Made by a program: the position numbers and the translations under genes. DNA of 64,000 nucleotides from positions 4,706,001 to 4,770,000 of the forward strand of contig NZ_CP136520.1 in assembly GCF_032813545.1 (NCBI RefSeq), in the 5' to 3' direction. This DNA is from Nodosilinea sp. E11. GTDB lineage: Bacteria; Cyanobacteriota; Cyanobacteriia; Phormidesmidales; Phormidesmidaceae. This document shows, one piece after another, positions 30,811 to 39,120 of the stretch (within the stretch, counting starts at the first letter, position 1; each line of letters starts with the position of its first letter). The notes beneath the pieces were generated by a model that was not told the DNA's origin, made no database searches, and worked only from the letters and a program-made list of their open reading frames with translations.

Positions 30811-30960
30811 GCTCTAAGCCCTTGGGAAGGTTGTGACCAAAGAATAGCGCAGATTTGACGGATAAGAACGCTAGGCAGGCTTTCTAGCGATTCTACGGCT
30901 CCTTAAGAGATGTTTAAGCGAGAACATACCAGCTTTAATCCGGGTGACTATAGCTCGCCG

Positions 30961-30984
30961 TAGGGTGGGCAATGCTCACCATTG
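30961..30984. repeat. Dispersed palindromic repeat, copy 1
   Basis: TAGGGTGGGCAATGCTCACC followed by ATTG. It matches a second copy at 36696-36719 except for one base. Confidence 0.7.
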
Positions 30985-34740: not shown

Positions 34741-35811
34741 TTAGGTTAGGGGCTGCACCCGTTGGGGTGGCCAATAGATTTTGTAGGCATTGCCTACTAG
34801 ATGGGGCCGAGGCAAAAACCCCCATACGTGGGAGTCGCGGCTCTGGTTGCGGTTGTCGCCCAGCACAAACAAATGCCCCTCAGGTACCATTGCAGGCCCC
34901 CACTCATAGCGAATGGGCTCAGCCAGGAAGGGTTCGACCAGGGGGCTGCCGTCAATCCACACCTGCCCCAGCCGAATGTCGACCTGCTGGCCCGGCAGGG
35001 CGACGACGCGCTTAACCATCAGGTTATAGAGCTCTCCGGCTTGGCTGGGGGGAGTGCGCTCGGGGTTAGAGAAGACGACAATATCGCCAATCGCCGGGGT
35101 GTAGTCGGCGGGCTGAGGGCGCACAAAGATGCGATCGCGGACTTCCAGTGTGGGCAGCATCGATTCGCTAGGCACAATGCACTGCACTACCATCTGTGGC
35201 ACCACGAAGGGGATAGAGCTAATCGCCAAGCGTGTCACCACAATGGCGACTAGCAGTAAGCCCAGCCAGCCCCACTGCCGTTGGCGCACCGGAGCCGCCC
35301 GGTAGACTAGCCCGCAACCTACGGCCCAAATCACTGTGGTCAGCGGTAGCAGCGCTGGGTTGAAATTGGCTAGATAGGCCGTCAAGATCCCCAAAATGAG
35401 CAAGGTAGCCCCGATCGCAGCCTTCTGCAAAAACAGATGTCCCAGCCCTGGCAACACCTGGGAGAGAAACACCGGATACCAGGGATCTTTAGATTGGTAG
35501 CGCAGGGGGCTGAACTGATCGAGGGTAATGCCCCGCTTAGCCGCGTGGTGGCTATCCCACAGGTTGAATAGGTATAGACCCAGCAGCGGCACCAGGCTAA
35601 GCAGTCCGCGCAGAGTGTTGCCCCCCGGAGCAAAAATTGACCAGAGAACAAAACCAATCAGACCCAGGTGCAAGGCGAAAAGTACCAGACCACGGGCGAT
35701 CGCGCCATCATACATCTGCCCCACGCCGGGCAGCGCCGCCGACAAATTGACCGCTAGCCAGGGGCTTTTGGGCGGCCTTCGGCCCACCAGTACCGTTGGG
35801 GTCGCCTTCAT
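34741..35811 (-). CDS. lepB: Signal peptidase I with extra N-terminal membrane domain
   Basis: 356 residues, much longer than the usual 190-220. The C-terminal half is a normal S26A signal peptidase: catalytic Ser217 in PSESMLPTL, Lys267 in MVKRVVALPG, and the GDNRNQSRDSHVWGF block. The first 205 residues contain about five membrane helices with two LPG(V/L)G repeats (residues 27-31 and 120-124). It removes signal peptides at the outer face of the membrane; what the added domain does is unknown. Confidence 0.9.
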   Translation of the reverse strand: MKATPTVLVGRRPPKSPWLAVNLSAALPGVGQMYDGAIARGLVLFALHLGLIGFVLWSIFAPGGNTLRGLLSLVPLLGLYLFNLWDSHHAAKRGITLDQFSPLRYQSKDPWYPVFLSQVLPGLGHLFLQKAAIGATLLILGILTAYLANFNPALLPLTTVIWAVGCGLVYRAAPVRQRQWGWLGLLLVAIVVTRLAISSIPFVVPQMVVQCIVPSESMLPTLEVRDRIFVRPQPADYTPAIGDIVVFSNPERTPPSQAGELYNLMVKRVVALPGQQVDIRLGQVWIDGSPLVEPFLAEPIRYEWGPAMVPEGHLFVLGDNRNQSRDSHVWGFLPRPHLVGNAYKIYWPPQRVQPLT

Positions 35812-35820
35812 AGCTCAGGG

Positions 35821-36612
35821 TTAGCCATAGCGCTGCACAGCATAGTCGTGGGCAGCAAATTCTTCCGTATCGGCCAGGGCGGGCAGAGTGAGGGTGGCAT
35901 CGGCATACCGACGGCGCAGGGCCAGGCCAATTAAATAGTCGGCAAAGTGGGGGTTCTTAGGCAGCAGCGACCCGTGCATGTAGCTGCCAAACACATTTTT
36001 ATAGCGCGCCCCCTCGTGCTCGGCGGTAGCGTTGTTGCCAAACCCAGCGATGGTTTGGGCCAAGGGCTCGACGCCGTCGCCCAAATAGGTTTGGCCCGAA
36101 TGGTTCTCAAACCCCACCAGGGTGCGAGGAATGGCGCGGGGAGAGGCGTAGAGGGTCTGCATATCGGCGTAGGTGGCGGCAGCAATTTCCCCAATCAGGT
36201 TGCCGATGCACCGCTGTTTGACCTCGGTGCCCGGTGCGCGGGTGCTGACGTTGATAATGCCCAAACCGCGCGTCTCTTCACCATTGCCCATCAGAAAGGT
36301 ATGGCCCATCAACTGGTAGCCGCCGCACACCCCCAAAAAAGGCACCCCTGCCTCAGTATCGGCACGAATGGCGTCGTATTTGAGCTGGTGAAAGTCTTCG
36401 ACGACGGCCACCTGGTCCGTGTCTTGGCCACCCCCCATAAAGTAGAGGTCGGTCTGGCCTGCCTGGGCGGTTTCACCCATAGACAGCGATTTTACCGTGC
36501 AGTCAATGCCCATCCACTGGCAGCGGCGGCGCAGCACAATCAGATTGCCGGTGTCGCCGTAGAGATTGAGGTAGTCGGGGTAGAGGTGAGTGATGGTGAG
36601 GGCGTAGGGCAT
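35821..36612 (-). CDS. gatD: Lipid II isoglutaminyl synthase, glutaminase subunit GatD
   Basis: 263 residues of class I glutamine amidotransferase type. Nucleophile Cys96 in GVCGGYQL and His213 in SYMHGSLLP form the active site. With MurT it transfers ammonia to the D-glutamate of peptidoglycan stem peptide. Ten bases separate it from lepB, and MurT is the next gene upstream. The frame is open to 36681, but ATG 36612 precedes the family N-terminus (YALTITHLYPDYLNLYGD). Confidence 0.9.
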   Translation of the reverse strand: MPYALTITHLYPDYLNLYGDTGNLIVLRRRCQWMGIDCTVKSLSMGETAQAGQTDLYFMGGGQDTDQVAVVEDFHQLKYDAIRADTEAGVPFLGVCGGYQLMGHTFLMGNGEETRGLGIINVSTRAPGTEVKQRCIGNLIGEIAAATYADMQTLYASPRAIPRTLVGFENHSGQTYLGDGVEPLAQTIAGFGNNATAEHEGARYKNVFGSYMHGSLLPKNPHFADYLIGLALRRRYADATLTLPALADTEEFAAHDYAVQRYG

Positions 36613-36658
36613 GGGGTAGATGGGTGGATGGGTGGATGGGTAAGAGGTAGGTAGGTAG

Positions 36659-36682
36659 GGTGCATTCCCGAAACAATGCACC
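36659..36682. repeat. Small palindrome in the gatD-murT gap
   Basis: GGTGCATT/AATGCACC with an 8-base loop; it lies beside GTAGATGGGTGG-type simple repeats (36615-36660). Confidence 0.6.
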
Positions 36683-36695
36683 TAGGGTAGTCCTG

Positions 36696-36719
36696 TAGGG
36701 TGGGCAATGCCCACCATTG
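36696..36719. repeat. Dispersed palindromic repeat, copy 2
   Basis: TAGGGTGGGCAATGCCCACC followed by ATTG, containing perfect palindrome GGTGGGC/GCCCACC. Copy 1 is at 30961. Confidence 0.8.
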
Positions 36720-36813
36720 TCTACGGCTTCTGCAGGGTGAACCCTAGACAATATCGAGGCAATGCCCACCATTGTCTACGGCTTCTGTAGAGTGAACCCT
36801 AGACAATATCGAG
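36704..36813. repeat. Tandem 55-bp duplication including the murT stop codon
   Basis: Copies at 36704-36758 and 36759-36813, identical except for two bases. The second contains the last codons and stop of murT (36799-36813). Confidence 0.92.
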
Positions 36814-38115
36814 GGTTTTGCCCATGAGCTTGCGGAATTCGAGCATGGCGGTGTAGGTAGGCAGCACAAATACCGTGTCGCCAGGGTTGGCTTTTTCAAA
36901 CGATAAATCAATCGCCTGGCGGATTGATTCTACGGTTGGGCTGGGGCTGGGAGGTGTATCTAGGGCGTACTTCAGCCGCACGACCATATCCTTGGCGCGG
37001 ATGCCAGTGCAGAGAATCCAGTCAATATCGGCTTGGGTGAGCCGTTCTACCTCGCTATCCCACAGCCAAGAGACATCTTTGCTGTCGGCGGTGTTGTCGT
37101 TGATGGCCAGCATCAGCTTCAAGGCTGGAATATTGCGCAGCAGCTCTAGGCTGAGGCTAAAGCTGGCGGGGTTTTTGACCAGTAGTAGCCGGTAGTTGAC
37201 CTGTTTTTCGCCCTGAGCACGGGTGAGAATTTCGCCCCGACCAAAGGCAGGTCTGAAGGTTTGCAGGCCTGCGATCGCAGTCGCTCCGTCAATGCCGAGC
37301 AGGTTAGCGATCGCGATCGCCATCAGCCCGTTGTAGACGTGAAAGAACCCCGGCGACACGGTTTTAGCCTGGGGCAAATGCACCCCTTGGTCATTCATCC
37401 GACCCTGCACCGAAAAATCGGTGGTCAGGTCTTCGTTAATGCGAATGTTGGTGGCCTCTAGACCCTGGCTATCGGGAAGACGGCGATTGAGCTTACCCTC
37501 ATAGGGCAAAAACCGGGCGTACTCTGGCGCCAGGGACATGTAATAGGTCGCATTTCCCAAGCCCTGGGTGAGGCGGGCAGTGCGGGGGTCATCGCCATTG
37601 ACCACCACAGCAGCGGTGGGGCACTGGGCAATTCCGTCGCGAATCAGCTTTTCGGTGCGATCGATTTCGCCGTAGGCATCAAGCTGGTCGCGGTAGAGGT
37701 TAGTAACGGCAATAATATTGGGTTTGAGTAGGGTCGCAATTCGGGGCAGAGTAGCCTCTTCAACTTCGAGAACGGCGTGGGTAAAGTCTAGGCGGCCAAA
37801 ACCATTGCTCTGCTTGAGCAGTTCTGACAAAATACCCTGGCTGAGATTGGCCCCAGCTTTGTTGCGCAGCACCCTTGCCCCTGGCATTTGATCGAGAACA
37901 GCGCTGAGCATGGTTTGGCTGGTGGTTTTACCGTTGGTGCCGGTAATTGCCACCACCACCGGAATTTGGCTGACCAGTGCTTCTAGCACAAAGGGAAAGT
38001 AGCGACCAATTAAGTAGCCGGGCAGGGCTGTGCCTGAACCACGCCCCGATACCCGCAGAGCCAGGGTGAGCAGTTTGGCAAAGGCAACAATCGGAATCAG
38101 CAGCAGTTGGTTCAT
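36799..38115 (-). CDS. murT: Lipid II isoglutaminyl synthase, Mur-ligase subunit MurT
   Basis: 438 residues. The ATP loop GTNGKTT lies at 59-65; the Mur ligase central motif HAVLEVEEATLPRI and a DUF1727 C-terminal domain (LLVKNPASFSLSLELLRNI, DSKDVSWLWDSEVERL) are present. Partner of GatD, which follows. A short N-terminal hydrophobic helix is present. It has no zinc-ribbon cysteines, unlike Gram-positive MurT. The reaction (amidation of glutamate in lipid II) is known from Gram-positive bacteria; presence in a cyanobacterium implies, but does not prove, the same step. Confidence 0.9.
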   Translation of the reverse strand: MNQLLLIPIVAFAKLLTLALRVSGRGSGTALPGYLIGRYFPFVLEALVSQIPVVVAITGTNGKTTSQTMLSAVLDQMPGARVLRNKAGANLSQGILSELLKQSNGFGRLDFTHAVLEVEEATLPRIATLLKPNIIAVTNLYRDQLDAYGEIDRTEKLIRDGIAQCPTAAVVVNGDDPRTARLTQGLGNATYYMSLAPEYARFLPYEGKLNRRLPDSQGLEATNIRINEDLTTDFSVQGRMNDQGVHLPQAKTVSPGFFHVYNGLMAIAIANLLGIDGATAIAGLQTFRPAFGRGEILTRAQGEKQVNYRLLLVKNPASFSLSLELLRNIPALKLMLAINDNTADSKDVSWLWDSEVERLTQADIDWILCTGIRAKDMVVRLKYALDTPPSPSPTVESIRQAIDLSFEKANPGDTVFVLPTYTAMLEFRKLMGKTLDIV

Positions 38116-38316: not shown

Positions 38317-39120
38317 ATGGTGACCAAGGCAGAACGGGTGCTGTGGGTGATTGGCGGTACCGGGGAGGCCGTAGAGTTGGCCACGGCGCTGGCAGCTGCA
38401 GAAATTCCTTGTCTGGTGACGGTGACGACAGCCGCCGCCCGGCAAGCCTATCGAGAAAATCCCTATCTGAGAGTGCTGGTCGGGGGCTTAGCGGTAACTG
38501 CCCTGGAGGAGTTTATCCAAAACCAGAGGATCGGGGCGGTGTTAGATGTATCCCATCCGTTTGCGGTGGAGATTTCGCAAGGGGCGATCGCGGCTATCCA
38601 AGCACTACAGCTCCCCTACTGGCGCTACGAACGGCCATCTATAGAACAACCTGCCACCCACGGGCTAATTCATGAGGCTGCCGACCTCAATGCCGTACTC
38701 ACCCCTGATCTGCTGGCTGGCGAGCGGGTTTTACTCACCCTGGGCTATCGTTGGCTGCACCACTTCGCCCCCTGGCAGGCCCAGGCCACTCTATTTGCCC
38801 GCATTCTGCCATCTCCGGCAGCTCTGACAGCAGCTTTGGGGGCAGGGTTTACACCAGACCGGCTGATTGCGCTGCGCCCCCCGATCTCGATGGCGCTAGA
38901 GCAGGCTCTCTGGCAGCAGTGGCAGATCACCCGAGTGATCACCAAAGCTTCCGGTGCTCCAGGCGGTGAAACCACCAAACGAGCCGTCGCTGAGCAGCTC
39001 AAAATTCCTCTCTATATTTTGGCGCGTCCCAAGCTGGATTACCCAGCGATATGTCAAAGCTCGGCAGACGCCCTAGCAACCTGCCAAGCCTGGTGGCACA
39101 ACTCCCCCCGCCTGACTTAA
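38317..39120 (+). CDS. cobK: Precorrin-6A reductase
   Basis: 267-residue NADPH-dependent reductase of the corrin ring in cobalamin synthesis. The signatures VIGGTGEAVELATAL, VLVGGL, VLDVSHPFAVEIS and WRYERP fit the family. AGGAGAG precedes the ATG. It stands alone with its back to murT. Together with the riboswitch-controlled hupE it shows the organism makes B12-type cofactors. Confidence 0.93.
   Translation: MVTKAERVLWVIGGTGEAVELATALAAAEIPCLVTVTTAAARQAYRENPYLRVLVGGLAVTALEEFIQNQRIGAVLDVSHPFAVEISQGAIAAIQALQLPYWRYERPSIEQPATHGLIHEAADLNAVLTPDLLAGERVLLTLGYRWLHHFAPWQAQATLFARILPSPAALTAALGAGFTPDRLIALRPPISMALEQALWQQWQITRVITKASGAPGGETTKRAVAEQLKIPLYILARPKLDYPAICQSSADALATCQAWWHNSPRLT

Follow-up and report, generated by a model that had tools for sequence, protein, structure and literature searches.

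A zinc-ribbon-less MurT/GatD pair of Patescibacteria type in a cyanobacterial genus

The gatD-murT locus and its products

The window, a 64,000-nucleotide stretch of the Nodosilinea sp. E11 genome (contig NZ_CP136520.1), holds at 35821-38115 two minus-strand reading frames with the domains MurT_C, Mur_ligase_M and GATase_3 (Table 1). They are the MurT/GatD pair that a sequence-only reading had proposed for this place. The two genes are separated by 186 bases, and the second of the tandem repeat copies found here overlaps the 3' end of murT, carrying its final codons and stop. A 21-mer related to this repeat (36695-36715) recurs at 30960-30980 with one mismatch. Contigs of congeners end directly past murT in G410 and G421 and directly before gatD in G405, G408, G409 and G420; given contig ends there, these genomes too may have repeats at the junction. 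Of 14 GatD rows from the genus, 12 match over 261-263 residues and one over 283, while another is truncated where its contig ends; ATG 36612 is a better gatD start than GTG 36681.

Table 1. Genes, motifs and repeats of the gatD-murT region (window coordinates)
Feature	Position	Strand	Remarks
murT	36799..38115	-	438 aa Mur-ligase-like amidating subunit, ribbon-less; Pfam MurT_C and Mur_ligase_M, structural matches of AF2 model
gatD	35821..36612	-	263 aa glutaminase subunit, ATG at 36612; GATase_3, PDB relative 6fqb_E, E 6.8e-41
MurT P-loop GTNGKT, residues 59-64	37924..37941	-	alignment mapping
MurT loop RDQLDAYGE, residues 142-150	37666..37692	-	Ala147 at the place of pneumococcal Arg140, by motif
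MurT residues 193-254	37354..37539	-	Cys4 zinc-ribbon segment of other MurTs; cysteine-free here
GatD nucleophile Cys96	36325..36327	-	mapped from S. aureus C94
GatD His213	35974..35976	-	mapped from S. aureus H189
Tandem repeat between gatD and murT, two 55-nt copies, 96% alike	36703..36812	+	repeat comparison
Signal peptidase I (S26) gene	34741..35811	-	adjoins gatD; same in G406, G407, G427, G411
cbiJ/cobK	38317..39120	+	divergent neighbour of murT

The order S26-gatD-murT beside cbiJ occurs in the window genome and in G406, G407 and G427. In G411 the same three genes lie beside a gene for a SpoIIE-type phosphatase, and cbiJ was not detected there. The pair of G423 and G424 is located in surroundings other than these two. 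Five other members of the family (L246, L247, L248, L250 and L251) have a cbiJ-spoIIE pair without murT or gatD.

MurT is recognized by Pfam MurT_C (E 3.4e-27, 95 bits, cut-off 25) and Mur_ligase_M (E 1.9e-13, 51.3 bits, cut-off 24), and its nearest solved structure by sequence is the MurT chain of the pneumococcal complex 6fqb (E 9.1e-53). The cut-offs of the NCBIfam equivalogs NF045635 and NF045636 are missed (205.2 of 800 and 170.7 of 400 bits). L077, a MurT of the ordinary cyanobacterial type, also falls short (249.7 of 800). An AlphaFold2 model of MurT built from 21 sequences (mean pLDDT 87.5, pTM 0.88) has a fold closer to MurT than to MurC-F. In one fold search of the PDB the six top matches were all MurT (Z 31.0-34.7), followed by MurC (27.4) and MurF (26.7). 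The N-terminus is truncated and lacks the UDP-binding domain, the P-loop being reached already at residue 59; excerpts of PMC6113224 describe the short N-terminus of MurT as conserved.

Residues were mapped to S. aureus numbering through alignments to solved MurT and GatD structures. MurT K59, T60, N85, E108, E111, N267 and D349 correspond to K63, T64, N90, E117, E120, N262 and D347 of the window protein and are all kept, including the P-loop Lys/Thr, the Mg Glu (E117), the adenine Asn (N262) and the triad Asp (D347). The change of D110 to E119 is conservative. GatD scores 118.3 bits against GATase_3 (E 4.4e-34, cut-off 27), is nearest by sequence to the pneumococcal GatD chain among solved structures, and keeps the Cys nucleophile and the His (C94 and H189, here C96 and H213). 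P191 is replaced by S215, and the motif HGP, which is called well conserved rather than a definition in part of PMC6113224, reads HGS. HGS is also found in many Patescibacteria rows and in four Firmicutes-and-others rows (L090, L092, L096 and L103). Around the nucleophile, most Firmicutes rows and the window GatD have CGGYQ or CGGFQ; GatD of ordinary Cyanobacteriia (e.g., L077, L082, L230) reads CGSPQ or CGAPQ in all ten rows where it adjoins murT. Since the catalytic residues map and are kept in both subunits, the earlier view that both active sites look intact holds, apart from MurT D110 to E119 and GatD P191 to S215.

The window MurT is 75-91% identical to that of 20 congeners. The dN/dS ratio is 0.06-0.15 for murT against seven congeners and 0.08-0.14 for gatD against six (G563, from another family, was excluded from these ranges because dS is saturated). 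Purifying selection on both genes is strong, and the pair of reading frames is not a product of chance. In L052 (G414) murT is broken over two overlapping frames, a frameshift or an assembly error.

The missing zinc ribbon and a linked active-site signature

The window MurT has only two cysteines, at 165 and 369, and no cysteine knuckle pair in the insertion region, where residues 193-254 contain no cysteine at all. A Cys4 ribbon is thus impossible, as the sequence-only reading had pointed out. The cysteine tetrad occurs in all 24 of the other Cyanobacteriia MurT rows and in all seven melainabacteria-like ones, and in none of the 15 rows of the window genus or the two sporadic cyanobacterial rows. 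Among Patescibacteria it is absent from all seven rows of the nearest order and present in 2 of 29 other rows; 34 of 36 rows lack it, so MurT without a ribbon is common in that phylum. For the Firmicutes-and-others set an automatic ribbon counter gave 8 of 12, overlooking the Cys4-bearing L091, L092 and L096, so this figure is discarded. Two Cys4-bearing MurT/GatD from Patescibacteria, L180 (G760) and L181 (G948), group as sisters of the main cyanobacterial type (100/99); an old Patescibacteria link may therefore exist for the ordinary cyanobacterial pair as well.

The ribbon is not a requirement for MurT. Parts of PMC6085368 and PMC6113224 treat it as a feature of a subset, absent in some lactic acid bacteria, and excerpts of the former (Morlot et al. 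2018) name Oenococcus, Weissella and Leuconostoc as having lost the tetrad. According to the same excerpts, a quadruple Cys-to-Ser pneumococcal MurT has residual activity in vitro and is not tolerated in vivo, so the absence of the ribbon here is not trivial.

Two further changes accompany the missing ribbon. In S. pneumoniae numbering, assigned by motif, Arg140 of the loop is replaced by Ala147 and Asp112 of the acidic pair Asp112-Glu113 by Glu119, giving Glu119-Glu120 in the window protein. In pneumococcus these residues are reported as conserved, not as a definition of the family. The signature of Ala (one Val) with Glu is found in 15 of 15 rows of the genus, both sporadic rows, 7 of 7 rows of the nearest Patescibacteria order and 8 of 29 Patescibacteria rows outside it. 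All other rows, 64 of the 96, carry Arg, together with Asp in the 63 that can be read at that site. The two sites change together: of 134 distinct MurT sequences, 38 are A/E, 1 is V/E and 92 are R/D; none combines the two types, and in 3 at least one of the sites is unreadable. Portions of PMC6085368 report that R140A reduces the activity of pneumococcal MurT and that Ser at 112 and 113 abolishes it. Because the first change harms the pneumococcal enzyme and the clade has Ala, the clade either tolerates the change or has compensated for it.

Distribution, affiliation and direction of transfer

MurT_C is detected in 255 of 386 genomes of the cyanobacterial phylum. The suggestion that MurT/GatD in a cyanobacterium is notable in itself, made from the sequence alone, had to be given up on these counts (see also Morlot et al. 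2018, PMC6085368), which are at odds with statements on MurT among cyanobacteria in excerpts of a 2025 paper (PMC11915815). MurT/GatD is not rare in cyanobacteria; what that suggestion missed is the Patescibacteria subtype of this pair and its two extra active-site changes. Within the family MurT_C occurs in 22 of 26 genomes of the genus and in none of 37 genomes of other genera. Among those 37, G386 carries on a 4.5-kb contig an N-terminal fragment of MurT, 64% identical, that escapes the MurT_C count. The four remaining congeners, G405, G408, G409 and G420, have a gatD 87-92% identical to that of the window whose murT-side end is within 15 bp of a contig end, so their murT probably lies in an assembly gap, and one subunit or both are present in each of the 26 genomes of the genus. 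Loss of the pair in these four was considered and rejected on the gatD at their contig ends, murT itself not being seen. In 19 of the 22 congeners with MurT_C, gatD lies next to murT; one of these gatD copies is truncated at the end of its contig. The contigs of G410 and G421 end before any gatD, and G419 has murT on L214 (G419:C67) and an 81% identical gatD on L262 (G419:C213), interior to its contig. Outside the family, the pair of G563 sits on a contig of 18 kb together with genes for RNase J, aspartate-semialdehyde dehydrogenase, trigger factor and ClpX, a context that we take to be cyanobacterial.

Separate murT and gatD loci also occur elsewhere. With the window GatD as query, no gatD was found in the short murT flanks of 30 of 30 melainabacteria-like loci (L002-L031), and in the three such genomes tested (G263, G214 and G339) gatD lies elsewhere. 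A GatD-free MurT was likewise considered for the A/E-type MurT of L172-L176, near which no GatD was found, yet their genomes, G746, G686, G718, G668 and G646, each have one elsewhere and the idea was rejected.

The closest MurT/GatD outside cyanobacteria belong to a single order of Patescibacteria, a group of mostly small-genome bacteria living on other cells. Identities there are 53-56% for MurT and 58-67% for GatD (56 and 67% in G958, 53 and 58% in G918), with 41-44% for MurT of further members of the order; ten ordinary cyanobacterial pairs reach only 32-35% for MurT and 37-42% for GatD. Among the best 80 loci of the genome-contig scan the nearest were the Patescibacteria MAGs L083 (39%) and L084 (41%), and a follow-up search covered 314 genomes of the phylum of L083 and 10 of the order of L084 within that phylum. 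The order members G953, G956 and G957 gave no MurT match and also no GatD match at E 1e-8.

Trees give the same affiliation. For a quick, broad MurT tree, 179 rows, many of them duplicate loci, were reduced to 96, leaving out the partial L213 (G386). The genus and the two sporadic cyanobacterial rows fall inside the Patescibacteria order in this tree (24 rows, SH-aLRT 96). In a careful MurT+GatD tree of 44 hand-chosen rows with adjacent GatD, the ribbon columns dropped, the genus and G563 group with G958 (98/92) and, with G918 added, reach 100/100; a GatD-only tree gives 98/91 and 100/99. AU tests, for which some of the groups were defined with the first tree already known, reject a single clade of all cyanobacterial types (delta lnL 236, p 1.5e-8), a clade of the seven order rows (p 5.7e-5) and a cyanobacteria-free clade of nine Patescibacteria rows (delta lnL 114, p 5.6e-5). 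A clade of G918 and G958 without cyanobacteria is not rejected (p 0.071), which leaves the exact sister unsure. Judged from these alignments and trees, the window pair is of the Patescibacteria-type lineage and is not an ordinary cyanobacterial MurT/GatD. With this affiliation, and the ribbon absent from the order, the missing ribbon is inherited from Patescibacteria and not a local loss.

Gene context bears on direction. In five of eight Patescibacteria loci rsmA lies at or near gatD: it is the next gene after gatD in G958, G918, G952 and G634, and a nearby one in G867. The genes tgt, uvrB or dnaE are also near in these rsmA-bearing loci. No rsmA was found at G955 and G954, which have other genes after gatD, or on the 3.3-kb contig of G635. 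Neighbours were named by Pfam for the tested genes of G958, G918, G867 and G634, and by similarity for the rest. This shared housekeeping context argues that Patescibacteria are old holders of the pair, and in these trees Patescibacteria form the deeper branches of the clade; they are the likely donors. Homology, conserved residues, fold, phylogeny, gene context and purifying selection are the observations behind our main reading, in which we have fairly good confidence: the pair is a ribbon-less MurT/GatD amidotransferase of Patescibacteria subtype that the ancestor of the cyanobacterial genus would have gained horizontally as a two-gene unit. No report of a transfer of MurT/GatD from Patescibacteria to cyanobacteria appeared among the matches listed from the open-licence PMC literature.

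Three other histories have to be weighed. The pair might be an ordinary cyanobacterial MurT/GatD that descended vertically and lost its ribbon in this genus, as the presence of MurT/GatD in other Cyanobacteriia and the tetrad losses of lactic acid bacteria would allow. This is very improbable, because the window MurT is much closer to G918 and G958 than to the ten ordinary forms, the A/E signature is missing from all 24 ordinary rows, and the concatenated and GatD trees reject it under the models used, as does the AU test on a single cyanobacterial clade. A gift in the other direction, from a cyanobacterium to the lineage of the Patescibacteria G918 and G958, finds some room in the branching order of these two and the cyanobacteria, which is not firmly resolved, but it is improbable with the deeper branches being Patescibacteria and with rsmA after gatD in G918 and G958 as in G952 and G634, an arrangement unlikely for a later import. 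Finally, Patescibacteria DNA might have been assembled or binned into cyanobacterial genomes. There is reason to consider this for G460 and G386, where the gene lies on contigs of 8.2 and 4.5 kb, the bins are 8% and 6% contaminated and the genomes have no GatD match above 38 bits; both are uncertain hosts of the gene. For the window genus such an artefact is refuted and its probability close to nil: the pair is interior to contigs of 5.46 Mb in the window genome, 6.10 Mb in G406 and 4.31 Mb in G423, and the GC content of murT (0.557) and gatD (0.597) fits that of six neighbour genes (0.56-0.60) and not that of the eight Patescibacteria loci (0.32-0.39).

Putative function and comparison with known systems

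We infer the substrate, the activity and the resulting wall chemistry from homology to characterized pairs. Cys96 and His213 of GatD, with Asp347 of MurT completing the triad, would split ammonia off glutamine. MurT would bind ATP at its P-loop and Mg2+ through acidic residues among Glu117, Glu119 and Glu120, and would activate the α-carboxylate of lipid II D-isoglutamate, which the ammonia would convert to D-isoglutamine; the zinc ribbon would be dispensable for this subtype. Strong purifying selection, the co-absence of MurT and GatD, and the D-iGlu amidation inferred for T. elongatus in a paper on PBP-A (PMC11189452, in part) make lipid II amidation the likely role, and amidated muropeptides in the genus are plausible. 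Excerpts of that paper also cite an older report of amidated cyanobacterial muropeptides, and MurT and GatD are not mentioned in its main text. PBP-A itself was weighed as a marker of wall amidation. At L221 1237-3186(-) the window genome encodes a protein closely related to T. elongatus PBP-A (2j7v, E 7.3e-74), of about 650 residues with a long proline-rich N-terminal extension and with Gly in place of Glu96, the presumed D-iGln sensor. Homologues occur in 341 of 386 genomes of the phylum at E 1e-20, including the MurT-less relatives G170 and G215. With PBP-A present with or without MurT, and Gly at the Glu96 place, it lends no support either way.

The pair might instead amidate another carboxylate, for example that of meso-DAP or of a non-murein acceptor. 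The linked changes at the Mg2+/acceptor site (Asp112 to Glu) and in the GatD-facing loop (Arg140 to Ala) would suit this; Asn90, which contacts the acceptor, Glu120, Asp347 and the KNP loop are unchanged, the Asp-to-Glu change is conservative and the best structural matches are all MurT, so we hold it unlikely. To return to amidation of lipid II by a transferred pair, Patescibacteria look like the source from which a whole cyanobacterial genus obtained a wall-modifying enzyme encoded by two genes. Enzymes of the subtype naturally lack the ribbon and the arginine that are important in pneumococcus and so offer a direct route to the roles of these features. A bolder and quite tentative idea is that it is mechanistically distinct, with ammonia gate (Arg140 to Ala) and acceptor/Mg site (Asp112 to Glu) rebuilt, and that the phototroph perhaps shields its wall from the hydrolases of attached Patescibacteria. 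If true, a free-living phototroph took an envelope enzyme from a lineage that is known to live on other cells and would have amidated walls of its own.

The best structural matches are the MurT/GatD of S. pneumoniae and S. pyogenes (6fqb, 9sq9, 9sqj), which share the fold, P-loop, acceptor Asn, GatD Cys/His and two-gene organization, yet MurT identity is 29-31%, and the window pair differs in its missing Cys4 ribbon, Ala147, Glu119 and GatD HGS. Of the S. aureus pair (6gs2, 6h5e, 7q8e) it keeps the residues whose mutation leads to loss of activity according to excerpts of PMC6113224 (MurT T60, E108, N267 and D349, GatD C94), and also GatD H189, for which the same excerpts support a role from another study; it differs in the ribbon and in GatD Ser215. 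Ordinary cyanobacterial MurT/GatD (L077, L082, L227) belong to the same protein family and the same phylum but, unlike the window pair, have Cys4, the R/D signature and their own GatD nucleophile motif. The nearest lineage is that of the Patescibacteria G958, G918 and their order, which are likewise ribbon-less and A/E (one V/E) with gatD adjacent; these loci differ in host phylum, in low GC content and in their neighbours, with rsmA in five of eight loci rather than S26 or cbiJ.
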